Shown: piece by piece, positions 1 through 9,731 of the stretch
Position numbering within the stretch: the stretch's first letter is position 1
Layout of the letters: every line of letters starts with the position of its first letter
DNA from: Streptosporangiaceae bacterium
GTDB taxonomy: Bacteria > Actinomycetota > Actinomycetes > Streptosporangiales > Streptosporangiaceae
Length of the DNA: 9,814 bases
NCBI GenBank assembly: GCA_030043395.1
Contig: JASHXW010000029.1
Location: forward strand, 1-9,814
Direction: 5' to 3'
Program-made: the position numbers and the translations under genes
Notes under the pieces: model-generated
Database searches by the model: none
The model's input: the letters and a program-made list of their open reading frames with translations, nothing else
What the model was told of the DNA's origin: nothing

Positions 1-1098
1 TTCGGCTTCGACGGTGACACCAGCGGCGACACCGGCTACAACGATGCCGGAAACCTGTACAAGGCGGTCAGCTTCGACGCCACGGCAGACGCCAACGCGC
101 GGGCCGCATACCTGAACAACAGCACCGATGCCAACCTGCTGCCACTGGACCCGACCGTTGTGCTGCGCGGAGGGACCTACCCGGTGCAACGGCCCAACGG
201 CAGCGGCGCGGGTATCAGTGCCCTGCTCGCGGACACCGCCGTCAGCGACCCGACCATTAACTTCGTCCGCATGTCCAGCGCGCCGACGTCGACCGAGGCC
301 GCCCAGGCGGTGACGAACGGCTGGGGTGGCCTGCAGGTCTTCGTGCTCGGCACCGAGCACTTGGAGATGGCCGCCGACCAGACGTCGACCAACGCTCCGG
401 CCGGGCTCTCGGCCCAGCAGCTGGTGCAGATCTATGAGTGCAATGACACGACCTGGAACCAGGTGGGCGGTACCTCGACCGACACCATCATCCCGGTCAT
501 CCCGCAGTCGGGATCGGGCACCCGTAACACCTTCCTGTCTGATCTTCAGGCGGCGAACGGCGGCACGGCGATCAACCTGGGCAGCTGCGTGACCACGGGT
601 GAGGAGAACGACCCAACCGCGATCACCAGCCTGTCTTCGGTGACGAAGTCACCTATTTCCGGTACCACCTGCACCCCGAACTGCGCGGCCGACGCCATCG
701 AGCCATTCTCCGGCAGCCGGCTCAACCTGTGGTCGGGCAAGAGCGGGAACACAACCTACGGCTCGAATCCGCCCGGCGGCTACTTCCACAACCCCGCCAC
801 TGCCTACCCAGGCGGCACGGTGCTAACCCCAGGGATCGTGCTGCTGACTGGCACGCCGTCGGATGGCAACCCGGTCTACGACGACACGCGCAACCTGAAC
901 GTCGTCTACCGGTGGTCTGACCAGGTCTCGACCACTCCGTGGCAGCCGGGCGGAACGCTGAACTGGGCCGAGACCCTGTTCTGCAATCCGGGCGGCAGCG
1001 TCACGCCGTTCTTCCAGACCCCGGCAGGAAAGACCCTGATCGCCGAGGCCGGGGCCAACCCCGCGACTCAATCCTGCCTGAGCTCGCCGATGACCTGA
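1..1098 (+). CDS. PstS-like substrate-binding (periplasmic-binding-protein fold) secreted protein, 5' truncated
   Basis: The frame is open from base 1 to TGA at 1096-1098, giving 365 visible residues; the start and any signal peptide lie outside the window. Motifs match the PstS-like/PBP type II solute-binding family: a segment reading RPNGSGAGISALL near residues 62-74, an INFVRMSS strand equivalent to the usual DFARSS, and an IPQSGSGTR motif (near residue 167) like the phosphate-loop SGSGT of PstS. In that family the protein captures a ligand outside the membrane and passes it to an ABC permease. Six cysteines (an even number) fit an exported, disulfide-bonded protein. No permease or ATPase gene follows. 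Instead a hairpin and a WxL-like surface-protein gene come next, so a role as surface receptor or complex member is as likely as transport. The ligand cannot be assigned. The family call is fairly confident; phosphate as ligand is not. Confidence 0.8.
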   Translation, partial: FGFDGDTSGDTGYNDAGNLYKAVSFDATADANARAAYLNNSTDANLLPLDPTVVLRGGTYPVQRPNGSGAGISALLADTAVSDPTINFVRMSSAPTSTEAAQAVTNGWGGLQVFVLGTEHLEMAADQTSTNAPAGLSAQQLVQIYECNDTTWNQVGGTSTDTIIPVIPQSGSGTRNTFLSDLQAANGGTAINLGSCVTTGEENDPTAITSLSSVTKSPISGTTCTPNCAADAIEPFSGSRLNLWSGKSGNTTYGSNPPGGYFHNPATAYPGGTVLTPGIVLLTGTPSDGNPVYDDTRNLNVVYRWSDQVSTTPWQPGGTLNWAETLFCNPGGSVTPFFQTPAGKTLIAEAGANPATQSCLSSPMT

Positions 1099-1109
1099 CC
1101 CAGTGACCA

Positions 1110-1141
1110 TGGGGGGCTGCCGGCCGTCCGGTGGCCCCCCA
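1110..1141 (+). terminator. GC-rich hairpin downstream of the substrate-binding gene
   Basis: Arms 1110-1123 and 1128-1141 pair over 14 positions, including two G-U pairs, around a CCGT tetraloop. The stem begins 12 nt after the stop codon. There is no T-tract, as is usual for actinobacterial intrinsic-like terminators. It probably separates this gene from the next, although partial read-through cannot be excluded. Confidence 0.7.
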
Positions 1142-1215
1142 GCCTACGGGTGAGGTCAAGACGCGAACAGCGGTCCGGTTCCGGCCAAGCCGTACCGGAT
1201 CCCAATTCCACCATG

Positions 1216-1222
1216 AAAGGGG
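1216..1222 (+). promoter_or_regulatory. Ribosome binding site that fixes the start of the WxL-like gene
   Basis: AAAGGGG lies 4 nt before ATG 1227. The frame is open further upstream (from 1131), but only ATG 1227 has this site and is followed at once by a signal peptide. A matching AAGGGAATC sequence precedes the paralogue at 5365, which supports both start choices. Confidence 0.75.
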
Positions 1223-1226
1223 AATC

Positions 1227-3044
1227 ATGAAAGGAAAGTTCCGCTCACTGGCGGTAGGTGCGGCCGCGGCCGTCACCATCGCCGGTGTCAGCGTGCTGGC
1301 GGGAGGTGGTGCAGCTCTTGCCGCCGGCGGGGGCGGCGCGACGCCGCCGTGGGAATCGTCGATCAGCCCGGCTCCTTACGGGTCGATCACGTTCTACAAC
1401 GCCGAGGGCCAGGTCATTACCGGCGGCAGCATTACCGCTAATGGCCTCGGGGCGTACGCGGTGGCTTCGACGGCAGCGCCTTCCGGCTACACCAAGGCAA
1501 CGCTGTTCATCAAGACGCCGGTGAGCGGCGAGAACCCGGGACTGTGGTCAGGCGAGCAGATCAGCAGCTCGACTAACTTCCCGAACAGTTCGGCTCCGTC
1601 GGAGATCGCAGACACAGCGAATCCGGTGGAGACCAACCCGGGAACCGACTCCACGGTCTCCAGCTACATAGCAGCATTCCCGAACACCCAGACTGCCTCC
1701 GGCTATGTCGGCTTGTACGACGTCCGGCTTGAGGCTACTGGCGCAGGCCTGCCTGCGCTCTCCTCGTACTGGGACACCGTAATCTCGGTCGACACCACCA
1801 ACAACACCTGGTCGGTGGACTACCCGGACTACACCCAGCTCACCACTACCGCGGTGAGTGCCTCCCCGGCCGGCCCGCAGACCGCTCCGGCTACTCCGAT
1901 CACGCTGAACGCGACCGTGACTCCGGCCACGGACGCTGTCGGAACGGTGAGCTTCTGGGACGGCTCCACGCAGGTTGGCGCTACTCAGACGGTCACCGGC
2001 ACAGGTGGCAACACCGCATCAGTATCGACGACTCCACCGACGGGCACGACGCCATACCAGGCCGTCTTCACCCCGGCGATCGGATCCTCGGACATCGGCT
2101 CTTCCGCCACGCTGAACTACGTGGTGAACGTGCCGCTGGACGCCACAACCACGACGCTTGCCGAGTCCGGCGGCGGCGGTGCAGCGGGTCCGGTCACCTT
2201 CACCGGTACCGTCACCGACATCACCACCAGCGCGAACAACCCGGTGAACGCCGGAACGGTCAGCCTGTTCGACAACGGCTCGACGACCGCGTTCGCGAAC
2301 GGAGCGGTCAGCTCGACTGGCACCTTCTCCATCACCTACAACTACACGTCGGCCGGGAGCCACTCGGTCGTCGCGACGTACTCGGGCAACTCCACCGAGT
2401 GGGCTGGCTCCTCGTCATCTTCCGTGACGTTCACTGAGTCGGCGCCCGCGTGCTCCACGTGTAACGACACCCAGACGATCGAGGGCACGGTTCCGGCCGG
2501 AACCATCTCGATCTCGACTCCTTACACGGCCTCGAACCCGCTGAACCTGGGGACCCTGGCATTGAACTCGGCTGGCACGTTCTTCACCGCGTCCGCCCCG
2601 CTCGATCCAAACTCCAGTAACGTCCCGACCGCTGGCGCTTACCCTGACCCGACGTTCAACGGCATCACGGTGGTGGACACCCAGTCCGGAAACCTGCCGT
2701 GGACGGTCACCGCGACGTCCAGCAACCTCTCCGATGGCTCCGGTGACGCCAACGGCGTCATCAGCGGGGAGAACGTCGGCCTGACCAACCTGGCCGCGGT
2801 ACTCGTGCCTGGTAACGCCATCGTCGCCGGCGATGTAAACCTGTTCAACCAGCCCGCCGCTAGCCCGCCGGTCGCACCGACCGACACGGGCTCGCTAGGT
2901 CTGATTGCCGGTCCTACCATCGCCACCGACACGGCCCAGCCTGACGGCACCGTCGGGATCAACGGCACTGTCACCCTGAACGCGCCCACCTCGACCGAGG
3001 CAGGCCTGTTCGTCGGCACCATCACCTTCACGATCACGGGCTAG
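1227..3044 (+). CDS. Secreted surface protein: N-terminal module, two Ig-like domains, C-terminal WxL-like domain
   Basis: Encodes 605 residues. A Sec signal peptide (basic MKGKFR, Ala/Val-rich core, ALAA near 30-33) is followed by a Gly linker. Residues 39-204 form a module shared with the protein at 5365. Residues about 207-301 resemble bacterial Ig-like group 3 domains (GTVSFWDGSTQVG), and about 304-403 a second Ig-like domain. The last 197 residues start with a CSTC pair (C409, C412). They contain DTQSGNLPWTVTAT (W492), like the first WxL motif (DxR...GWxL), and end in a VTLNAP...GLFVGTITFTIT strand like the WxL C-terminus, though the second Trp motif is absent. In Firmicutes WxL domains bind peptidoglycan noncovalently and associate with DUF916-type proteins. 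A DUF916-like gene lies just downstream, which supports the call. There is no transmembrane segment or sortase signal. Secretion and Ig-like domains are confident; the WxL assignment is an inference from motif shape and context. Confidence 0.82.
   Translation: MKGKFRSLAVGAAAAVTIAGVSVLAGGGAALAAGGGGATPPWESSISPAPYGSITFYNAEGQVITGGSITANGLGAYAVASTAAPSGYTKATLFIKTPVSGENPGLWSGEQISSSTNFPNSSAPSEIADTANPVETNPGTDSTVSSYIAAFPNTQTASGYVGLYDVRLEATGAGLPALSSYWDTVISVDTTNNTWSVDYPDYTQLTTTAVSASPAGPQTAPATPITLNATVTPATDAVGTVSFWDGSTQVGATQTVTGTGGNTASVSTTPPTGTTPYQAVFTPAIGSSDIGSSATLNYVVNVPLDATTTTLAESGGGGAAGPVTFTGTVTDITTSANNPVNAGTVSLFDNGSTTAFANGAVSSTGTFSITYNYTSAGSHSVVATYSGNSTEWAGSSSSSVTFTESAPACSTCNDTQTIEGTVPAGTISISTPYTASNPLNLGTLALNSAGTFFTASAPLDPNSSNVPTAGAYPDPTFNGITVVDTQSGNLPWTVTATSSNLSDGSGDANGVISGENVGLTNLAAVLVPGNAIVAGDVNLFNQPAASPPVAPTDTGSLGLIAGPTIATDTAQPDGTVGINGTVTLNAPTSTEAGLFVGTITFTITG
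1341..2124 (+). repeat. Paralogous segment, copy 1 (shared module plus first Ig-like domain)
   Basis: This coding segment is repeated in diverged form at 5476-6246. By hand alignment the first 166 residues of both copies align without gaps, with about 130 identities (roughly 78%). The longest identical DNA run I noticed is 32 nt (1542-1573 against 5677-5708). Similarity falls off after the GSSDIGSSA strand, where the two proteins continue with unrelated domains. Confidence 0.9.
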
Positions 3045-3066
3045 CAGCCAGCTCAGCTCGCAGGAA

Positions 3067-3082
3067 ACCGGCTTTTGCCGGT
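3067..3082 (+). terminator. Short perfect hairpin after the WxL-like gene
   Basis: ACCGGC (3067-3072) and GCCGGT (3077-3082) pair perfectly around a TTTT loop, 22 nt after the stop codon. It is a short stem and probably acts together with the larger hairpin at 3108-3138. Confidence 0.5.
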
Positions 3083-3107
3083 CACCGCATGACAGCATGT
3101 AGAGGAC

Positions 3108-3138
3108 GGGGCGGGCCCATCGCAAGTGAGCCCGCCCC
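3108..3138 (+). terminator. GC-rich terminator-like hairpin after the WxL-like gene
   Basis: GGGGCGGGC (3108-3116) and GCCCGCCCC (3130-3138) pair perfectly over 9 bp with a 13-nt loop. A pyrimidine-rich run (TCCCTCC) follows, but no T-tract. With the stem at 3067-3082 it probably ends the transcript of the WxL-like gene before the AT-rich promoter region. Confidence 0.7.
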
Positions 3139-3199
3139 TCCCTCCACAGTACCCGGCCCCTGTCCGCTTGCCAGCTATTCGCCATTGGTATCACGGTAA

Positions 3200-3230
3200 T
3201 TTACTTTTTGTTCAACTAATTCCTTATAAT
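3200..3230 (+). promoter_or_regulatory. Probable promoter of the three-gene unit at 3351-7110
   Basis: A perfect TATAAT lies at 3225-3230 inside the only clearly AT-rich stretch of the window (about 3181-3260). The best -35 candidate is TTTACT at 3200-3205 (4 of 6 matches to TTGACA), with a long 19-nt spacer. TTGTTC at 3208-3213 is too close. Initiation would be expected near 3238-3239. The -10 box is convincing; the -35 is weak, so an alternative or activator-dependent sigma arrangement is possible. Confidence 0.6.
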
Positions 3231-3237
3231 GAAACCT

Positions 3238-3350
3238 GAGCGATGATACGATTTATTCGAGTGGTAGCGCCTACCTCGATGCCTCCGAGAAGAGCGTCGC
3301 AGTCGCACCGGGAAAATCAGATAGCCACGACCAGAATGCGGATAACTGCG
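3238..3350 (+). promoter_or_regulatory. Presumed 5' leader with bulged hairpin, upstream of the WxLIP-like gene
   Basis: If transcription begins near 3238 and translation at ATG 3351, the leader is about 113 nt. It holds a dyad at 3257-3279: TCGA, a 2-nt bulge, GGTAG, loop CGC, CTACC, TCGA. The reading frame is open through the leader from ATG 3243 (other in-frame ATGs at 3279 and 3336), but none of these has a recognisable ribosome binding site. The residues they would add, rich in Arg, Ser and Gln, would precede a complete signal peptide. The whole gap 3045-3350 thus holds two hairpins, the promoter and this leader, and no separate gene that I can support. Confidence 0.45.
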
Positions 3351-4448
3351 ATGCGCGGGAATCGTGCCTCCTCAAGGAGAGCCAGGCTGGCAATAGCTCT
3401 CCTCTTGGTGCCCGCGCTGGCTGCGGCCGTTGCGGTCAGTACCGGTTCTGCGGCGCTCGCGGCGGACTCCGGCAGGCTGGTAAGTGCTAAGTCGGTGCCA
3501 CGCGCATTCTTCGGCCTCGGCCCGGCTAGTGCCACGAAGATCGACGGCCGCGCTTACTTCAACTGGAGCGCAACCCCCGGGGCATCGCTCACCGACCACG
3601 TAGCTGTCGTCAATTTTGGAAGTACCACGCTCAGCCTGCATATCTATGTGACTAATGCGGTCAGCACCATTAACGGCGGAACAACTTTCGTGCCTCAGGC
3701 GAAGGCCGTCGGCGGACCTGCAAACTGGGTGACATTGCATTTTCCCGGCCATTCGTCAGTCCTGAAGCTCGCGCCGCACAGCAAAGTGATCCTGCCCATC
3801 GAAGTGACCATTCCGAAGAACGCTCCTCCGGGGGACCACGTAGGCGCCATAATCGCGGCCCTGACGTCGGTTATCCAGAGCAAGAATCACGCCAAGGTGC
3901 ACTTTGTCCAGCAGGTCGCCGATCGCATCATCACCCGCGTTTCCGGCAAGCTGCGCCCCGGATTGAGCGTCGAGAACTTGCACGTGCAATACAGCGACCC
4001 GCTGAGCCCGCTTGCGACCAGCCCGGCGACGCTCACGTTCACCGTCCGCAACACCGGCAATGAACTGCTGGGCGGCAACGTCACCGTATCGGTGCACGGG
4101 CTGCTCGGATCGACCGAGACACGGTCTGACGTGGTCAAGGTTCCTGTCCTGCTGCCAGGTGGCTCTGATTCCGAGCGAGTGCAAGTCAAGGGCGTGTACC
4201 CGGAGATCCACCTGCAGGGCAAGGTCTCCATCGCGCCTCTCGTGGTACAGGGCCAGTTCGACCAGGGTCTGTCGACCTATTCAGCACAGGTCGGATTCTG
4301 GGCGATCCCCTGGATCGCGCTCGCGATACTAATCTTGCTCATCGCGTTGTTTGTCGGCATCTGGCTGCGCCGCCGCCGCTGGAGCCGAGCCGCGCTTGCC
4401 GAGCCGGAGGAGTCGGCACGCGGAGATCAGAAGGTGGAGGCCAAATGA
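3351..4448 (+). CDS. WxL-interacting-protein-like (DUF916-type) membrane-anchored surface protein
   Basis: Encodes 365 residues from ATG 3351. A signal peptide follows a basic N-region (RASSRRAR) with a leucine/alanine core and cleavage near 37-38 (ALAA/D). The first ectodomain (about 50-165) has the order typical of the DUF916 peptidoglycan-binding domain of WxL-interacting proteins: YFNWSATPGASL, a VAVVNFGS strand, TNAVSTINGG, a VTIPKNAPPGDHVGAI strand. A second beta-rich domain (about 195-310; LTFTVRNTGN) may stand where DUF3324 lies in Firmicutes. One transmembrane helix (WIALAILILLIALFVGIW) ends in an RRRR stop-transfer signal and a short charged cytoplasmic tail. The family's role is to bind WxL-domain proteins and peptidoglycan at the cell surface. 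A WxL-like gene lies upstream and an overlapping surface-protein gene downstream. The start is uncertain: 3243, 3279 and 3336 are in-frame alternatives, and no start has a good ribosome site. Confidence 0.85.
   Translation: MRGNRASSRRARLAIALLLVPALAAAVAVSTGSAALAADSGRLVSAKSVPRAFFGLGPASATKIDGRAYFNWSATPGASLTDHVAVVNFGSTTLSLHIYVTNAVSTINGGTTFVPQAKAVGGPANWVTLHFPGHSSVLKLAPHSKVILPIEVTIPKNAPPGDHVGAIIAALTSVIQSKNHAKVHFVQQVADRIITRVSGKLRPGLSVENLHVQYSDPLSPLATSPATLTFTVRNTGNELLGGNVTVSVHGLLGSTETRSDVVKVPVLLPGGSDSERVQVKGVYPEIHLQGKVSIAPLVVQGQFDQGLSTYSAQVGFWAIPWIALAILILLIALFVGIWLRRRRWSRAALAEPEESARGDQKVEAK
4436..4440 (+). promoter_or_regulatory. Ribosome binding site within the end of the WxLIP-like gene
   Basis: GGAGG lies 4 nt before ATG 4445, inside the last codons of the preceding gene. 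The ATGA overlap (4445-4448) indicates translational coupling of the two genes. Confidence 0.8.
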
Positions 4449-5326
4449 AGATCGTCCGCGCAACGGCGGGCGCCGCGCTGATCCTGGCGCTGGCCGCCGG
4501 GCCTGCCCAGGTAGCCACGGCCGCGGTGACGCACCCGAGCAGCCCGGCTCTGACCAGCGTCAAGCTGCCGTACAGCGACCCGGACCAGGCCGGGCTGCTG
4601 ACGCTCTGCGGCGTGAACCTGAAGCCCATCACGCACGGCAGCATCTACGCCAAGCCCTTCGTCTGGCGCGTGGTGTCCAGCCTCCCGACGCCGAAGGGCT
4701 ATTTCATCAAGGGTGCCAAGACCCAGATGTTCGCCTACCAGCCAAGGCCGTACACGCCGGCCGGTGCCTGGAGCGGCACGGTCATGGCCGCTGCCTCGTT
4801 GTACAGCAACCCGAAGCACCCGATGGCGCAGTTCACGCCGATCGACGAGCCACTCACGTACATGATCGACCAGTTCCCGCCGATCTGGGATCACCTGATC
4901 GAGCTGCGCCTGTATTACGGAGCACCCGGCCTGGCCGAGATCACCCGCCCGTACGCTGCGGCCGACATCCAGGTACATGGCGACACCTGGTCGCTGGTGG
5001 AAGGGGGGCATGCCTCCTGCACAGACGGCAAGGTCGAGTCCGTGGAAGTACTCGACCACCTACCCGGTGCGACCGGCACTCCGGCGCCATCCGCGACCGA
5101 CGCGCCTAAGCACACGTTGCCGCCGGCCCGGACGGCGGCCAAGGACGGTCCGACCCCCGTGTCGTCCACTGGGACAGCGGCACCGCAGGCAGGCGGCTCT
5201 TCGTCGGACGGTTCGTCGTCTGGCGGGACCGGAGTCCTGGTCACGCTGGGGATCGTCGTCTTGGCGCTGGCCGTGGGAGCGTCGGGCGGTGCGCTGTGGC
5301 GCCGCAGGCGCAGGGCGACAGGATGA
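4445..5326 (+). CDS. Secreted, C-terminally membrane-anchored protein; divergent copy of the locus-specific extracellular module
   Basis: Encodes 293 residues. A Sec signal peptide (1 to about 27, ATAA) leads to an ectodomain at about 41-187, a Pro/Thr/Ser/Gly-rich linker (210-261), one transmembrane helix (263-285) and a WRRRRR cytoplasmic end. There is no LPXTG motif before the helix, so it is anchored by the membrane rather than by sortase. I know no named family for it. By eye the ectodomain follows the same order as the N-terminal module of the proteins at 1227 and 5365: PITHGSI against VITGGSI; GAWSGT (W109) against GLWSGE; SLYSNPKHP against TNFPNSSAP; LIELRLYYGAPG against VGLYDVRL; and DTWSLV against NTWSVD. 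C55 and C192 could form a disulfide. The ATGA overlap with the WxLIP-like gene points to a joint complex, with this protein probably in the place of the small anchored protein of Firmicute WxL loci. Confidence 0.8.
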   Translation: MKIVRATAGAALILALAAGPAQVATAAVTHPSSPALTSVKLPYSDPDQAGLLTLCGVNLKPITHGSIYAKPFVWRVVSSLPTPKGYFIKGAKTQMFAYQPRPYTPAGAWSGTVMAAASLYSNPKHPMAQFTPIDEPLTYMIDQFPPIWDHLIELRLYYGAPGLAEITRPYAAADIQVHGDTWSLVEGGHASCTDGKVESVEVLDHLPGATGTPAPSATDAPKHTLPPARTAAKDGPTPVSSTGTAAPQAGGSSSDGSSSGGTGVLVTLGIVVLALAVGASGGALWRRRRRATG

Positions 5327-5349
5327 CTCCTCCACCAATCAGTAACGCG

Positions 5350-5355
5350 AAGGGA
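5350..5355 (+). promoter_or_regulatory. Ribosome binding site that fixes the start of the paralogue
   Basis: AAGGGA lies 9 nt before ATG 5365. In-frame ATGs at 5296 (inside the previous gene) and 5323 (overlapping its stop) have weaker sites, and their products would carry extra residues before the signal peptide. Confidence 0.7.
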
Positions 5356-5364
5356 ATCGCATTG

Positions 5365-7110
5365 ATGAAGCGCAAGATACGTGCGCTGACAGCCGGAGCT
5401 GCGGTTGCGGCCGCCGTCGGTTTCAGCATGGTCGCGGCGGGCAGCGCCGCCATCGCAAGCGGCGGTGGCGGTCCGACTCCGCCGTGGGAATCGTCGATAA
5501 GCCCGGCTCCGAACGGGTCCATCACCTTCTACAACGCCGAAGGCCAGGTCGTGACGGGCGGCAGCATCAACGCCGGTGGCCTCGGAGCGTACGCGGTGGC
5601 GTCCACCGCCGCCGAGGACGGCTACACCAAGGCGACTTTGTTCATGTACACGCCAGTGTCCGGCGAGAACCCAGGCCTGTGGTCAGGCGAGCAGATCAGC
5701 AGCTCGACCACGTTCCCGAACGCCTCGGCTCCGGCGCCAGTCGGGACTACGTCGAACCCAGTCGAGACCAATCCGGGCACCGAAACGACGATTGCCAGCT
5801 ACATATCGGCCTTCCCCAACACGCAGACCGCCACGGGATACGTCGGCCTGTACGACGTCCGGATGAAGGTCTCCGGGGATGGGATTCCGCCGTCGACGAC
5901 TTACTGGGATGCCGTTATATCGGTGAACACTACGAACGGCACGTGGTCGGTGGACTACCCGGACTGGACACAGGACACGACCACGTCGCTTTCGGCGAAC
6001 CCGCCGAGTCCGCAGACACCGCCGGCCAGCCTGACGACGCTGACCGCGACTGTCTCACCGGCCACGGACGGGACAGTGAGCTTCTGGAATGGCGCCACTC
6101 AGGTGGGCACGACCCAGACGGTCAGCACTAGCAGCGCTAGCGCGTCGGTAACGACGACTCCCGTCGGAGTCACCACGTACACGGCGATCTTTACACCTGA
6201 CGTCGGCTCGTCCGATATCGGATCATCAGCCTCCCTCACCTATGTTGCCTCGGCGCCAGCCGGCAACCCGGTGCTTTATGGCACCAGCAAGGTGAACTCC
6301 AGCGATCACTGCCTCGCGGCTTTCAGTGGCGCGACGACGGTGAGCTATGCGTGGCAGGTGGACGGCACCGATATCCCAGGGGCTACGACCAGCAAGTACA
6401 CGGTCCCAGCGTCGCAGCTTGGCGAGGTTCTGACGTGCTCGGTTACGGCGTCTAACACATCGGGATCGGTATCAGGTACGAGCAGCGCGGCGACCGTGGT
6501 TCCCGCCGCCCCGGACAGCAGCACCGCAGCGTCGCAAGTGCTGCAGGCGAGCCCGGTAATTGCGCAGGCTCCCGACTCGGGTGTACCGACCTGGCAACCG
6601 GTGCTTTACCCGACCGTCAAGTCTGGTGCCACCGTTACCTGCGAGATCGCGTTCAAGGGCGCTAACACGGTCACGTACGCCTGGCAGTCGAACGGGACAA
6701 CCATCTCCGGCGTCACGACAAGCACCTATCAGATCCCCGGCTCGGAGTACGGCAAGACACTGACGTGCTCGGCCAAGGCCACCAACACAATCGGGTCGGT
6801 ATCCGGCACCAGCGCGGGCGTCAAGGTGGCTCTGGGTGCGGCGCTCAAGGTGGTTACCAAGCCCGTGGTCAGCGGGCCGCACGAGCCAGGTAAGGCCGAG
6901 AAGGTGACTGCGGGCAAGTGGTCACCGGCGGCTTCCAAGGTGACCTATCAGTGGTATGTCGGCTCGAGCAAGGTCAAGGGCGCTACCAAGTCCTCCTTCA
7001 CCGTGCCGAAGTCCACGAAGAAGGGCGCCGAGGTGCACTGCGTGGTGACGGCATCGGCGACCGGCTACGCCAACGGCACCTACACGACGCCGTCGGTGAA
7101 GATCACCTGA
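5365..7110 (+). CDS. Secreted Ig-like repeat protein, paralogue of the WxL-like protein but without the WxL-like domain
   Basis: Encodes 581 residues. The signal peptide is MKRKIR plus an Ala/Val core, with cleavage near residue 32 (AIAS). Residues 38-203 are the module shared with the protein at 1227 (about 78% identical by hand count); about 204-296 is the matching Ig-like group 3 domain. The proteins then diverge. Here follow three Ig-like repeats at about 301-380, 411-490 and 494-581, each with a YAW or YQW core tryptophan and a late cysteine strand (LTCSV, LTCSA, VHCVV). The first two also have the early cysteine (DHC, VTC), giving the classical Cys-Trp-Cys pattern. The third lacks it, so the five cysteines leave one unpaired. 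There is no transmembrane helix or sorting signal, so it is presumably released or held by other surface partners. It follows the anchored-protein gene by 38 nt with no hairpin, so it is probably in the same operon. The ligand is unknown. Confidence 0.85.
   Translation: MKRKIRALTAGAAVAAAVGFSMVAAGSAAIASGGGGPTPPWESSISPAPNGSITFYNAEGQVVTGGSINAGGLGAYAVASTAAEDGYTKATLFMYTPVSGENPGLWSGEQISSSTTFPNASAPAPVGTTSNPVETNPGTETTIASYISAFPNTQTATGYVGLYDVRMKVSGDGIPPSTTYWDAVISVNTTNGTWSVDYPDWTQDTTTSLSANPPSPQTPPASLTTLTATVSPATDGTVSFWNGATQVGTTQTVSTSSASASVTTTPVGVTTYTAIFTPDVGSSDIGSSASLTYVASAPAGNPVLYGTSKVNSSDHCLAAFSGATTVSYAWQVDGTDIPGATTSKYTVPASQLGEVLTCSVTASNTSGSVSGTSSAATVVPAAPDSSTAASQVLQASPVIAQAPDSGVPTWQPVLYPTVKSGATVTCEIAFKGANTVTYAWQSNGTTISGVTTSTYQIPGSEYGKTLTCSAKATNTIGSVSGTSAGVKVALGAALKVVTKPVVSGPHEPGKAEKVTAGKWSPAASKVTYQWYVGSSKVKGATKSSFTVPKSTKKGAEVHCVVTASATGYANGTYTTPSVKIT
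5476..6246 (+). repeat. Paralogous segment, copy 2
   Basis: This is the counterpart of 1341-2124 in direct orientation, about 4.1 kb away. Similarity covers the shared N-terminal module and the first Ig-like domain and stops before the three C-terminal Ig-like repeats. Confidence 0.9.
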
Positions 7111-7119
7111 TCTGGCAGT

Positions 7120-7163
7120 CCTCGTCCGGCCGGTCGCGGCAGTTCGCGAACGGCCGGACGAGG
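7120..7163 (+). terminator. Long perfect hairpin ending the three-gene unit
   Basis: CCTCGTCCGGCCG (7120-7132) and its exact reverse complement (7151-7163) form a 13-bp stem. After one mismatch (G7133/A7150), TCGCG (7134-7138) pairs with CGCGA (7145-7149) to close a 6-nt loop. It starts 9 nt after the stop codon. No T-tract follows. Confidence 0.8.
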
Positions 7164-7186
7164 AGCCCGGCACGTTACGACTGTCT

Positions 7187-7220
7187 GGGCTGCCGGCCTG
7201 CCTAGAGCGGCCGGCAGCCC
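7187..7220 (+). terminator. Second perfect hairpin before the membrane-protein gene
   Basis: GGGCTGCCGGCC (7187-7198) and GGCCGGCAGCCC (7209-7220) form a perfect 12-bp stem with a 10-nt loop, followed by GCTTTGG. It lies 23 nt after the first hairpin. It could be a backup terminator or a leader structure for the gene at 7269. Confidence 0.65.
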
Positions 7221-7253
7221 GCTTTGGATAGAACGCCTTGCACTCAGGGCCGT

Positions 7254-7259
7254 GAGGAG
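7254..7259 (+). promoter_or_regulatory. Ribosome binding site that fixes the start of the membrane-protein gene
   Basis: GAGGAG lies 9 nt before ATG 7269. The longer in-frame TTG start at 7224 sits directly beside the 7187-7220 stem and has no usable site. I see no clear promoter between that stem and this site. Confidence 0.7.
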
Positions 7260-7268
7260 CTCACGCGG

Positions 7269-9731
7269 ATGGCCGCAGGTCGCGAACGCCCGGCCGTACT
7301 CCAAGCGCTGCACCGGCATCAGGACCTGGTCATCGAGCTCGGGCTGCTGCTGGCCGTGGAAGTGCTCATCCTGGCTGCGCTAGCTCCGGCATCGGCGCTG
7401 CGCAATGTGCTGCCGTACGGCTCGGACCACACAGGCCATCCTTATAACGTCAGTGAACTGGCCGCGAACCTGCGGCATTTCCGGCTGACCGGCTGGAGCC
7501 AGGGCTGGTTCGACGGCTTCCCGACCGGCGTGCTGTACCCGGTGCTCGCGCCCGTGGTGGCGGCGATCGGCAGCCTGGTCATTCCGCTTGCCGTGGCATA
7601 CAAGCTGACCGTGCTGGCCGGACCACTGCTGCTGCCGGTCTGCGCGTACCTAGCGGGGCGGCTGGCCGGGTTGCCGCGGGCGTATCCAGTGCTGCTGGCC
7701 GTGTTCTCGGCGCCGTTCCTGTTCGACGTCTCCTGCAATATCTGCGGCGGGCCGATCGAGTCCACCATGCTCGGCGAGTACGCCTATTCCTGGGGCCTGG
7801 CGCTCGGCGTGCTGTCTCTCGGGGCGACAGCGCGACTATGCGATGGCCGGGGTTCACGGTGGTGGCCGGCGCTGCTGCTCGGCCTGACCATGCTCGCCCA
7901 TCCGGTCACGGCGCTGTGGACGGCCGCGGGGATTGCACTGATCTTCGGTTACACATGGCTGATCAAGCGCCGGCCGCCAGGCTCCTCGCTGGTTCCCCTG
8001 GCACTTGCGGCGCTGCTGGCCGCGGTCTGGTGGCTGCCATTCCTGGCTGACCGGCAGTACATGCCCGAGCCGCTGCAGGGCAAGCTGACCCAGTACCTGT
8101 CGCTGCTCTTCCCGGCCAGCGGGCCATGGGAGGTCGTCCTGACCGCGCTCGCCGCAGGCGGAGCGTACTGGGCGATCAGGAACCGGCAGCCATTTCTAGT
8201 GGCGCTAACTGGCATCACCGTCCTTGCCGCTCTCGGCACCCGGTTCCTGCCGGTAAACCAGCTTCCCAACTGGCGGGTCCTTGAGTTGTGGCTGGCCGGC
8301 TGCTGGCTGCTTGCGGCGGTCGGGTGCGTGGAAGGCGTGCGGTGGCTAGTCAGCCGGATGCCGTCGAAGCTGCGCGAGCGGCAGTGGGTATCGGATGGCA
8401 GGGTCAGGTACGCGGTGGCGGGCGGCGCGCTTCTCGCGGTCGCGCTGGCGCAGGGCGTTCCCTGGGGCCTGTGGCCGGGCGAGCAGTTCCGCAGCGGCAA
8501 GCCCGCGCACGAGCGATGGCTCGGCCTGGATTTCCCGGCTGTGCCGCAGGCGAGGTTCGCCGGCCACGTCTTCGGCGGGGCGCTGGCGAACCCCGGAGGC
8601 AAGAAGTACGAAGCCATGGTCGCGATGCTCAAGGGCGTCGCCCGAACGCACGGTTGCGGCCGGGTGGCCCTGGACGAGAACTACTACGGCGGGACGCCCC
8701 GCTTCTATGACGAGCTCGACTCGCTTCCGCTGATCACCAGCGGCTGCCTCAGCACGCTGATGGGCACATTGGCGGACTCTGGCGACAACGTGCCGGCGAT
8801 CCTGTTCGCCGAGTCGGAGGCATCGAGCTATCCGCTCATGTACATGCCGCATATCCCGTATCCCAAGTTCGACCTCTCGGCAGCGGTCGCCGACCTGCGG
8901 TTGCTTGGAGCGAAGTACTACCTCACTCATGGCGGCGAGGCCGAGGCTGCCGCGCGGCTCCAGCCCGATCTCTCGCTGGCCGGATCCACTGCGGCCGTGC
9001 AAGTCTGGGAAATCAGTGATGCCACGCTGGTCACGGCGCTTTCCTACAAGCCAGTGGTCGTCCGCGATCTGGCGGGCAAGGCGACCTGGGTGCAGTACTA
9101 CCTGGACTATGAGCTGAGTACTGAGTGGGGCCATGTGCTCGAGGCGCAGAGCGGGCCGCCGAGCTGGCCCACCGCGCTGGCCGGTCATATCCCGCCGGCG
9201 ATCGCGCAGCCGCCGGTGAAGGTCAGTGACGTGTCCGTGAACGGCTCGGTCATCAGCTTCACCGTGAGCCGCGTCGGCGTTCCCGTCGAGGTCCGGGATA
9301 CTTATTTTCCGGGCTGGCAGGTGCACGGCGGGACTGGCCCGTACCGGGCAATGCCGGACTTCATGGTGGTCGTGCCGACGAGCCATCACGTGACGCTCAC
9401 CTACACGACCACGGCGATCATCACGACGGCCGATGTCCTCGGCGGCCTGGGTCTCGCCGGAATCCTGGTGCTGGGCATCACCGACAGGCGCCGCCGCCGG
9501 GTCACGCCTGCGCCAGCTACTGTGCCGTCGGCTAAGGGAGGCAAGCCACCGCGCGATCCGGTGGCCAAGGTAGCCGAGCCCATGAGGAGCGGGGCAAAGA
9601 CGGGCTCTGCGCGTGCGCCTGTGCAGGGCAGCGCGCGGTCTCGGTCAGGTGCCCCGTCCCGTTCAAGCTCCGGAACTGCAACCGGTGCGAAGAAGAAGAC
9701 TCCTTCTCGCCCGGGCGGCGCCAAGAAATAG
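7269..9731 (+). CDS. Polytopic membrane protein, PTPS-related / GT-C glycosyltransferase-like
   Basis: Encodes 820 residues from ATG 7269. After a cytoplasmic start, the first membrane helix (about 20-42) leads to an extracytoplasmic loop with GSDHTGH (D53, H54, H57) and DGFPTGVLYP. This is the Asp/His-bearing first-loop pattern of GT-C enzymes and of the 'PTPS-related' membrane family (PF10131 type). Roughly ten further hydrophobic segments run to about residue 400. A large extracytoplasmic domain (about 400-715) ends in YFPGWQVHGG, a feature shared with YfhO-like proteins. A final helix (about 717-740) is followed by RRRRR and a Lys/Arg/Ser/Pro-rich cytoplasmic tail of about 75 residues. 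GT-C proteins transfer sugars from lipid-linked donors outside the membrane; the donor and acceptor here are unknown. Despite the family's name, nothing suggests pterin synthesis. Two hairpins separate it from the surface-protein genes, so functional coupling with them is only a possibility. Confidence 0.75.
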   Translation: MAAGRERPAVLQALHRHQDLVIELGLLLAVEVLILAALAPASALRNVLPYGSDHTGHPYNVSELAANLRHFRLTGWSQGWFDGFPTGVLYPVLAPVVAAIGSLVIPLAVAYKLTVLAGPLLLPVCAYLAGRLAGLPRAYPVLLAVFSAPFLFDVSCNICGGPIESTMLGEYAYSWGLALGVLSLGATARLCDGRGSRWWPALLLGLTMLAHPVTALWTAAGIALIFGYTWLIKRRPPGSSLVPLALAALLAAVWWLPFLADRQYMPEPLQGKLTQYLSLLFPASGPWEVVLTALAAGGAYWAIRNRQPFLVALTGITVLAALGTRFLPVNQLPNWRVLELWLAGCWLLAAVGCVEGVRWLVSRMPSKLRERQWVSDGRVRYAVAGGALLAVALAQGVPWGLWPGEQFRSGKPAHERWLGLDFPAVPQARFAGHVFGGALANPGGKKYEAMVAMLKGVARTHGCGRVALDENYYGGTPRFYDELDSLPLITSGCLSTLMGTLADSGDNVPAILFAESEASSYPLMYMPHIPYPKFDLSAAVADLRLLGAKYYLTHGGEAEAAARLQPDLSLAGSTAAVQVWEISDATLVTALSYKPVVVRDLAGKATWVQYYLDYELSTEWGHVLEAQSGPPSWPTALAGHIPPAIAQPPVKVSDVSVNGSVISFTVSRVGVPVEVRDTYFPGWQVHGGTGPYRAMPDFMVVVPTSHHVTLTYTTTAIITTADVLGGLGLAGILVLGITDRRRRRVTPAPATVPSAKGGKPPRDPVAKVAEPMRSGAKTGSARAPVQGSARSRSGAPSRSSSGTATGAKKKTPSRPGGAKK

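Follow-up and report, generated by a model that had tools for sequence, protein, structure and literature searches.

Sequence analysis of an actinobacterial locus encoding a diverged WxL-domain protein next to a WxL-interacting protein

Organization of the locus

We analyzed a 9,814-nucleotide stretch of DNA (the window) from a Streptosporangiaceae bacterium, in which all features described below lie on the forward strand. The gene at 1227..3044 encodes a large secreted protein of 605 amino acids composed of a signal peptide, a head formed by a domain without a prior name (here WSG), Ig-like modules (Big_3_5), and a C-terminal WxL-like domain. A WxL-interacting protein (WxLIP) of 365 amino acids is encoded at 3351..4448; its signal peptide and C-terminal transmembrane segment were read from the sequence and flank a DUF916/PGBD domain and a second Ig-like region. 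The open reading frame of a small membrane-anchored WSG protein of 293 amino acids (4445..5326), devoid of LPXTG, overlaps that of the WxLIP by 4 nucleotides (ATGA), and a secreted WSG paralogue at 5365..7110 (5' limit approximate) combines a WSG head with its own tail of Ig-like repeats. An earlier note on this DNA had described a secreted 1227 product with a Trp-492 motif and a terminal strand, and a small membrane-anchored protein whose gene overlaps that of the WxLIP. Both descriptions hold: the 1227 product has a signal-peptide-like start at ATG 1227, Trp at residue 492, Phe at residue 601 in the distal motif, and the terminal GLFVGTITFTIT strand, and the small protein has a hydrophobic C-terminal segment besides the 4-nucleotide overlap.

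The window contains one WxL protein and one WxLIP; a WxL profile search of its open reading frames revealed no second WxL protein. The C-terminal domain of the 1227 product has 178 homologues at E ≤ 1e-3, of which the best 120 are listed, whereas 82 homologues were found for the WxLIP and 118, including itself, for the small protein. These numbers, together with the recurrence of the WxL-WxLIP gene pair across Actinomycetota, indicate that the locus is more than a chance arrangement.

Between the WxL and WxLIP genes lies a strong G+C stem-loop (3098..3148) that is not followed or accompanied by a T run and is a candidate terminator or attenuator. Its folding energy is −33.5 kcal/mol for 3095–3150 (z −4.78), and none of 200 shuffled sequences folded equally well. 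The same intergenic region carries an A+T-rich stretch, so the two genes could have separate transcripts. A scan of 900–7300 found neither sigma-70-type promoters nor T-run terminators.

The WxL domain and its WxLIP neighbor

The C-terminal domain of the 1227 product comprises about 200 residues (2439..3038) and was modeled with a mean pLDDT of 87.5. The window's own domain and 13 of 78 relatives go unmatched by the PF13731 profile; the other 65 of these 78 homologous domains match it at E ≤ 0.1, the best at 1.4e-10, and within a 16-genome set four matches in four genomes exceed the cut-off, each directly upstream of a WxLIP. When the profile of the window's subfamily was compared with the domains of 73 relatives (locus L006 onward), hhalign returned 99.7%, against 0.1% for both the reversed profile and an Ig-module control. 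Judged by this chain of homology through relatives, and not by a direct PF13731 match, the C-terminal domain of the 1227 product is a diverged WxL domain. The WxL resemblance proposed in the earlier note thus stands by profile homology, at the level of the family. PDB matches of the WxL profiles (PsaK, a glycoside hydrolase, and weaker ones) had E values of 0.01 and above and were judged to be chance.

The first motif, Trp-x-Leu after Asp-x-Arg, reads WTV after DTQ in the window, with the codon of Trp-492 at 2700..2702. The Trp is kept in 77 of 78 domains, and the residue two positions after it is Val in 28, Leu in 27, Ala in 17, Ile in 5, and Met in 1. PMC5817068 gives the second motif as Y...(L/I/V)TW.L near the C terminus. 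At its place the window has Phe-601 (TITFTIT; codon at 3027..3029), and Trp is replaced in all 78 domains (Leu in 53, Phe in 15, Ile in 6, and Val in 4) with the spacing kept, the published Firmicutes motifs being the sole standard of comparison. Among the 120 subfamily matches listed, none has a second-motif Trp, in agreement with the earlier note, which had remarked on the absence of this motif from the window's domain.

The neighboring 3351–4448 product had been described as a membrane-anchored protein of the DUF916 type. PF06030 (WxLIP_PGBD) matches it at 3549..3851 (residues 69–169 of the product read from 3345), scoring 34.4 bits (cut-off 27.3; E 2.5e-8), and a hydrophobic segment near its C terminus, read by eye, places the putative membrane helix at approximately 4305..4370. 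By these sequence features the product is a WxL-interacting protein. Its relatives are alike: PF06030 was detected in 79 of 81, and a hydropathy test found a hydrophobic segment within the last 80 amino acids of all 73 full-length homologues. The WxLIP profile matches the EfmWxLIP1 chains in the PDB (9i25 and 9i1y) at 7e-6, and the conserved WxLIP strand QIDK..YFDL pairs with KIDGR.YFNW. The homology spans about 140 residues of the PGBD, including this conserved N-terminal strand, and ends there, leaving the second domain of EfmWxLIP1 unmatched. Similarly, no DUF3324/HBD (PF11797) was detected after the PGBD in any of the 81 WxLIPs at E ≤ 0.01, a result that a diverged form below profile sensitivity could also give, and PF11797 was found in 0 of 22 genomes, with L. 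lactis as the positive control. A scan of viral contigs revealed no WxLIP relatives.

WSG carriers and conservation of the gene pair

In the window's relatives, the WSG domain occurs on three carriers that differ in their anchoring. The head of the WxL protein matches at 1314..2030 (6.8e-71; residues 62–300 of the open reading frame from 1131), a match that may extend into the first Ig module. That of the small protein lies at 4553..5080 (2.3e-76; residues 37–212) and was modeled confidently as a block of residues 41–210 with pLDDT 96–98. hhalign related these two with 98.4% (control, 0.3%), and the 5365–7110 paralogue, which lies beyond the coordinates of the earlier note, has the same head as the 1227 product (67% identity over 304 amino acids) and lacks both the WxL domain and a C-terminal membrane segment. 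A natural fusion (P0085) joins a WxLIP and its transmembrane segment to a WSG domain. At E ≤ 1 the WSG profile retrieved nothing from the PDB, and the 4445 product matched nothing in Pfam at E ≤ 1 or in NCBIfam at E ≤ 0.1.

The small protein ends in a hydrophobic segment followed by RRRRR, and a hydrophobic tail is present in all 109 of its homologues of at least 260 amino acids. Because a sortase gene lies near one related locus (L002), we considered sortase anchoring. None of the 118 homologues has an LPXTG-like motif in its last 70 amino acids, including one (P0318) whose source name says LPXTG. We therefore rejected sortase anchoring; the hydrophobic tails agree with the transmembrane anchoring suggested earlier.

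We assessed conservation in 81 loci gathered by the WxLIP alone, regardless of WxL. The WxL gene is directly upstream of the WxLIP gene in 66, near it in 8, on the opposite strand in 1, and missing in 6, five of which are contigs cut at that place. In the window's clade (L002–L005) a WxL domain is always beside the WxLIP. The two families also co-occur in an even sample of 148 other Actinomycetota genomes (P 2e-7): five of the six WxL genomes have both, and in the sixth (G052) the next gene matches WxLIP weakly (E 0.0019). Two genomes of this sample (G060 and G147) have a WxLIP without a WxL match. Of 39 WxL matches across 16 genomes, 28 have a WxLIP at a distance of 5 kb or less and 11 are far from any. 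Of the 31 WxLIP matches entered, 7 lack a WxL in that range, and a Kribbella genome (G015) encodes a WxLIP but yielded no WxL match whatever. These data bear out the proposal that the pair co-occurs in other actinobacteria. WxL and WxLIP protein distances correlate (r 0.85; 0 of 2000 permutations) over 72 of the 75 loci with WxL, with L030, L063, and L070 left out. This correlation is no evidence of binding, because linked genes share descent; likewise, conserved adjacency is not binding.

A possible actinobacterial surface-display unit

The Csc clusters of Lactobacillales and Bacillales (PMC1534035, PMC9772566, and PMC10599100) resemble the window in that adjacent genes encode a WxLIP with a signal peptide, PF06030, and a C-terminal transmembrane segment; a larger secreted protein whose head varies and whose C-terminal domain belongs to the WxL family; and a small anchored surface protein nearby. 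The actinobacterial family differs in lacking the second Trp (0 of 78 domains) and a detectable DUF3324, and the window has no separate small WxL protein, a transmembrane segment in place of the LPXTG anchor of the small protein CscD, and a WSG head on three proteins. The actinobacterial pair is a version of the docking pair that has been known chiefly from lactic acid bacteria and related organisms. It is distinct, as had been surmised, in three tested respects (no second Trp, no detectable DUF3324, and no LPXTG on the small protein), and is spread over the phylum rather than peculiar to this genome. The cited papers treat WxL systems as a Firmicutes device, found largely in gut commensals, and propose a role in host binding. 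According to PMC9772566, Firmicutes account for over 91%, and hence not all, of 938 WxL sequences, so some other members are already in databases, and PMC12537917 places DUF916 genes next to genes of Ang-2, which is restricted to Actinomycetota. The open literature, searched mostly at search-result level and outside supplementary tables (e.g., the species table of PMC10599100), yielded no account of a WxL-WxLIP pair from actinobacteria, nor did the available portions of PMC10599100, PMC9772566, PMC12537917, PMC1534035, PMC4449606, and PMC5817068.

We consider it likely, with a probability of roughly three in four, that the locus encodes an actinobacterial version of the WxL-WxLIP surface-display unit. 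Anchored in the membrane through its C-terminal helix, the WxLIP would expose its DUF916 domain within the wall. There the 1227 protein, once secreted, would dock via its C-terminal WxL domain, so that its head points outward; in line with the prediction for the enterococcal pair, a β-strand of the WxLIP would probably complete the WxL sandwich. An interface built on the second Trp and DUF3324 would be lost here, since the former is missing throughout and the latter undetectable. In this clade the membrane-anchored partner and the unanchored paralogue have the WSG head as well; with this domain in common, the three proteins probably bind one ligand or assemble together.

The C-terminal domain could instead be merely WxL-like, a generic β-sandwich of secreted proteins with a convergent motif match, as the lack of a direct PF13731 match and of the second Trp might suggest; 5 of 78 relatives also match DUF4402 and 7 of 78 NPCBM_assoc, weakly. 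The hhalign result with its controls, the PF13731 matches across the family, four genomes being over the cut-off, and the constant adjacency to WxLIP in this clade make convergence highly improbable. Alternatively, the domain itself might bind peptidoglycan or a wall polymer, with the WxLIP a co-inherited neighbor of separate or merely assisting role. Firmicutes WxL domains bind peptidoglycan, also in trans, according to PMC5817068; 11 of the 39 WxL matches are remote from any WxLIP, and one genome (G007) has seven WxL matches and three WxLIPs. The pair nevertheless recurs both in loci gathered by WxLIP and in the unselected genome sample, and the protein distances correlate, although shared descent alone could yield that; we regard this explanation as rather unlikely.

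It appears quite unlikely that the locus is a solute-uptake or phosphate-related module in which the upstream PBP_like_2 protein does the work, held in position by the WxL, WSG, and WxLIP proteins. In favor of this reading, the PBP_like_2 gene lies directly upstream in the window, and homologues with 45% identity (L002) and with 31% over 126 amino acids (L005, near a second PBP_like_2 gene) precede the WxL gene of related loci. In addition, HtaA, purple acid phosphatase, and a transporter-associated surface family are among the heads of WxL proteins elsewhere in actinobacteria. However, a PBP_like_2 gene or homologue is present in only three of the six loci read gene by gene (L003 is without one, and the sequences of L001 and L004 end short of that position), the L005 homologue has no Pfam match of its own, and the TIGR02136 score is 27.6, below the cut-off of 206.6.

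Returning to the surface-display unit, the actinobacterial relatives seem to use one dock to display very different proteins. We tentatively suggest that the pair may serve as a general plug and socket, one membrane-tethered socket taking WxL-tailed proteins whose heads are unrelated, among them plugs whose genes lie at other genomic sites, and that in the window's clade the WSG heads of socket-docked, membrane-tethered, and free proteins might assemble head-to-head. The actinobacterial spread and heads such as HtaA, phosphatase, and GH92 suggest that what these systems have in common is not host binding but a general function in surface display. The pair offers a means of naming anchors for actinobacterial surface proteins now annotated as hypothetical, and the role of the second Trp is directly testable, as it is replaced clade-wide while the WxLIP partner is retained. 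The heads of the WxL proteins are mutually unrelated (Ig-like, HtaA, choice-of-anchor M, phosphatase, and GH92): beside the WxLIP in other actinobacterial loci, 19 of 78 are of the NCBIfam choice-of-anchor M/TIGR03773 type and 16 of 78 match Pfam HtaA, unlike the window's head, which consists of the WSG domain and Big_3_5.

Organization of the gene cluster

On the forward strand of the window, a 5'-truncated PBP_like_2 (PstS-like) gene (1-1098, Pfam E = 1.7e-12) lies directly 5' of the gene for a secreted protein of 605 residues, the WxL protein (1227-3044). Downstream, on the same strand, are genes for a DUF916 protein (WxLIP, 3351-4448) and a small protein (4445-5326), both of which have a hydrophobic C-terminal tail, for a secreted paralogue of the WxL protein (about 5365 to 7110), and a long hydrophobic protein (7224-9731). 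The last has PTPS_related (E = 0.1) as its only Pfam match and is probably a multi-pass membrane protein, perhaps an enzyme. The 1227 and 5365 genes begin with duplicated sequence and differ in their tails; a 300-nt direct repeat (1263-1562 versus 5398-5697) has 78% DNA identity.

As the earlier note had described, the small surface protein gene overlaps the DUF916 gene, by 4 nt (ATGA), and W492 and GLFVGTITFTIT of the 1227 product are both at the positions reported there. The two genes share this 4-nt overlap in the collected loci L002 and L004; they are separate in L001, the closest named genome locus (a Streptosporangiaceae MAG, WxLIP identity 63%).

Between the WxL and WxLIP genes, we found a strong G+C-rich stem-loop without a T run (-33.5 kcal/mol for 3095-3150, z = -4.78), with 39% G+C on its 3' side (3160-3260) versus about 66% for the window. 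A terminator and a promoter preceding WxLIP are possible within 3098-3260. By eye, the A+T-rich stretch 3' of the stem-loop (to 3260) contains a perfect TATAAT.

Family assignment of the pair

The assignment of the 3351-4448 product to the DUF916 type was borne out, PF06030 scoring 34.4 bits against a cut-off of 27.3. The same family was matched by 29 of 31 chosen relatives (E ≤ 0.1) and 79 of the 81 WxLIPs from the collected loci, window included (E ≤ 0.01). Searched against the PDB, the WxLIP family profile recovered the EfmWxLIP1 chains 9i25_C (7e-6) and 9i1y_A (8e-6), aligning the EfmWxLIP1 strand QIDK..YFDL, which PMC10599100 describes as highly conserved, to KIDGR.YFNW of the family. This match was confined to the PGBD and stopped at its end. 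DUF3324 (PF11797), the second WxLIP half, was detected in 0/81 collected WxLIPs at E ≤ 0.01 and in 0/22 genomes at E ≤ 0.001 (positive control, Lactococcus lactis). PF06030 also exceeded its cut-off in the Thermotoga maritima control genome, indicating that DUF916 also occurs outside the Gram-positives.

At its C-terminus, the 1227 product has a domain without a Pfam name, to which PF13731 gave no match. A WxL profile built from 120 listed homologues of 178 found, the window's protein among them, detected the domain in 51/81 loci after one round and in 75/81 (78 domains) after iteration. PF13731 matched 65 of these 78 domains at E ≤ 0.1 (best 1.4e-10), leaving 13 without a match. In 16 whole genomes it gave nine matches at E ≤ 0.001, spread over seven genomes; four, in G008, G010, G014, and G016, exceeded the cut-off, all directly upstream of WxLIP. 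Profile comparison of the window subfamily with 73 domains (L006 onward) gave 99.7% (E = 3e-26), versus 0.1% for both the reversed alignment and the Ig-module profile. The AlphaFold2 model of the domain is all-beta (mean pLDDT 87.5, pTM 0.79), with both WxL motif positions predicted on strands. These data support the proposed WxL membership of the 1227 C-terminus, and by homology we assign the gene pair to the WxL/WxLIP families.

The suggestion that the domain lacks the second Trp holds well beyond the window. Of the 78 aligned domains, 77 have W at the first position and one has F; at the second position W never occurs, the residues there being L (53), F (15), I (6), and V (4). The distal motif, given as Y...(L/I/V)TW.L in PMC5817068, retains its spacing with W substituted in 78/78. 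The second Trp is likewise absent from all 120 listed subfamily matches (of 178 found), 105 of which have the replaced motif while 15 fall outside the pattern used, and, by eye, from the domains of four sampled genomes (L093-L096).

The window pair departs from published definitions in the second Trp, DUF3324, two-WxL, and LPXTG features. On sequence grounds, the actinobacterial pair is a variant of the known families; we found no description of it in the literature searched.

Pairing across genomes

Loci L001-L080 were gathered with the WxLIP family as the sole query: 566 pattern matches yielded 472 relatives, of which the best 80 were kept. Their titles are actinobacterial save L004, a MAG labelled Acidobacteriota. 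With the window, WxL is directly upstream of WxLIP on the same strand in 66 of 81 loci, near it in 8, on the opposite strand in 1, and absent in 6. Five of these six (L001, L019, L021, L039, and L043) have a contig start at or just 5' of the WxLIP gene, L001 retaining a 34-residue WxL tail; in L075 (Kribbella), the WxL profile had no match anywhere in the whole genome. At L070:2093-6301 (-), a GH92-type protein ending in a WxL domain is encoded on the strand opposite to WxLIP.

Of 149 evenly sampled Actinomycetota genomes, the centre G001 among them, 7 matched the WxL profile, 8 matched PF06030, and 6 matched both. With G001 left out, WxL was found in 6 of 148 genomes, PF06030 in 7, and both in 5 (P = 2.3e-7), with gaps of 152-620 bp, in agreement with the predicted co-occurrence in other genomes. 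In the WxL-only genome, G052, the adjoining gene is a weak WxLIP match (E = 0.0019); G060 and G147 are WxLIP-only. Among 16 genomes chosen for having WxLIP, 28/39 WxL matches lay ≤5 kb from WxLIP; of the 36 listed WxLIP matches, 31 were entered, and 24 of these lay ≤5 kb from WxL. G007 has seven WxL versus three WxLIP matches, suggesting that a single WxLIP may serve several WxL proteins. In two plasmid records (Cellulosimicrobium and Clavibacter), where a GH43 gene lies close to the pair, its annotations are 'hypothetical protein' and 'DUF916 domain-containing protein'. Locus L093 (genome G121, a 1.4-Mb Actinomycetota) encodes two small WxL proteins, then WxLIP, a layout like that of Firmicutes clusters.

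Shared domain, variable heads, and a possible mechanism

The small 4445 protein shares a domain with the heads of both the 1227 product and the 5365 product; we named this domain WSG, after its W-S-G motif (profile searches gave E = 9e-10 and 1.7e-10 for the two heads; reverse search 3e-15; hhalign 98.4%, control 0.3%, the query side counted as one sequence). For the small protein, the domain was modelled with high confidence, the block pLDDT being 96-98 over residues 41-210. The combined profile matched 13/4823 ORFs of the 81 loci, confined to five loci (window and L001-L004) and all within the WxL/WxLIP cluster. Anchoring differs among the carriers (WxL tail, membrane segment, or none); all three carriers are present in the window, L002, and L003, and the contig ends within the WxL gene in L001 and L004. 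The homologous protein P0085 (622 aa) combines WxLIP and its TM with a WSG domain in one polypeptide; this fusion supports a predicted association of WxLIP with a membrane-anchored WSG partner. P0084 and P0086 (Kitasatospora) have other sequence beyond the WxLIP TM.

The N-terminal parts of 78 WxL proteins fell into groups of 27, 20, 15, 6, and 5 plus five singles; at the threshold used, no group resembled another. Head families were Big_3_5 (29), HtaA (16), Big_7 (5), and GH92 (1); purple acid phosphatase N-domain plus Metallophos heads occurred in 5/78, and choice-of-anchor M/TIGR03773 in 19/78. HtaA is heme-binding. Large Firmicutes WxL proteins are modular in like manner, according to PMC9772566, with other heads.

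PMC10599100 presents a predicted E. faecium complex in which the WxL sandwich is completed by a WxLIP hairpin. Modelled on that complex, WxLIP would most likely be a membrane-tethered socket and the WxL tail the plug docking into it, with the head as the working part outside; docking, wall binding, and the ligand are what we infer. The Ig-like modules suggest adhesion. LPXTG is absent from the small proteins, despite a sortase gene in L002 (L002:3-899, PF04203, 47.1 bits), which lies upstream of the PBP, WxL, and WxLIP genes. In L002 and L005, as in the window, a PBP_like_2 homologue precedes the WxL gene, whereas L003 has none there; the PBP_like_2 gene at this position hints at a solute.
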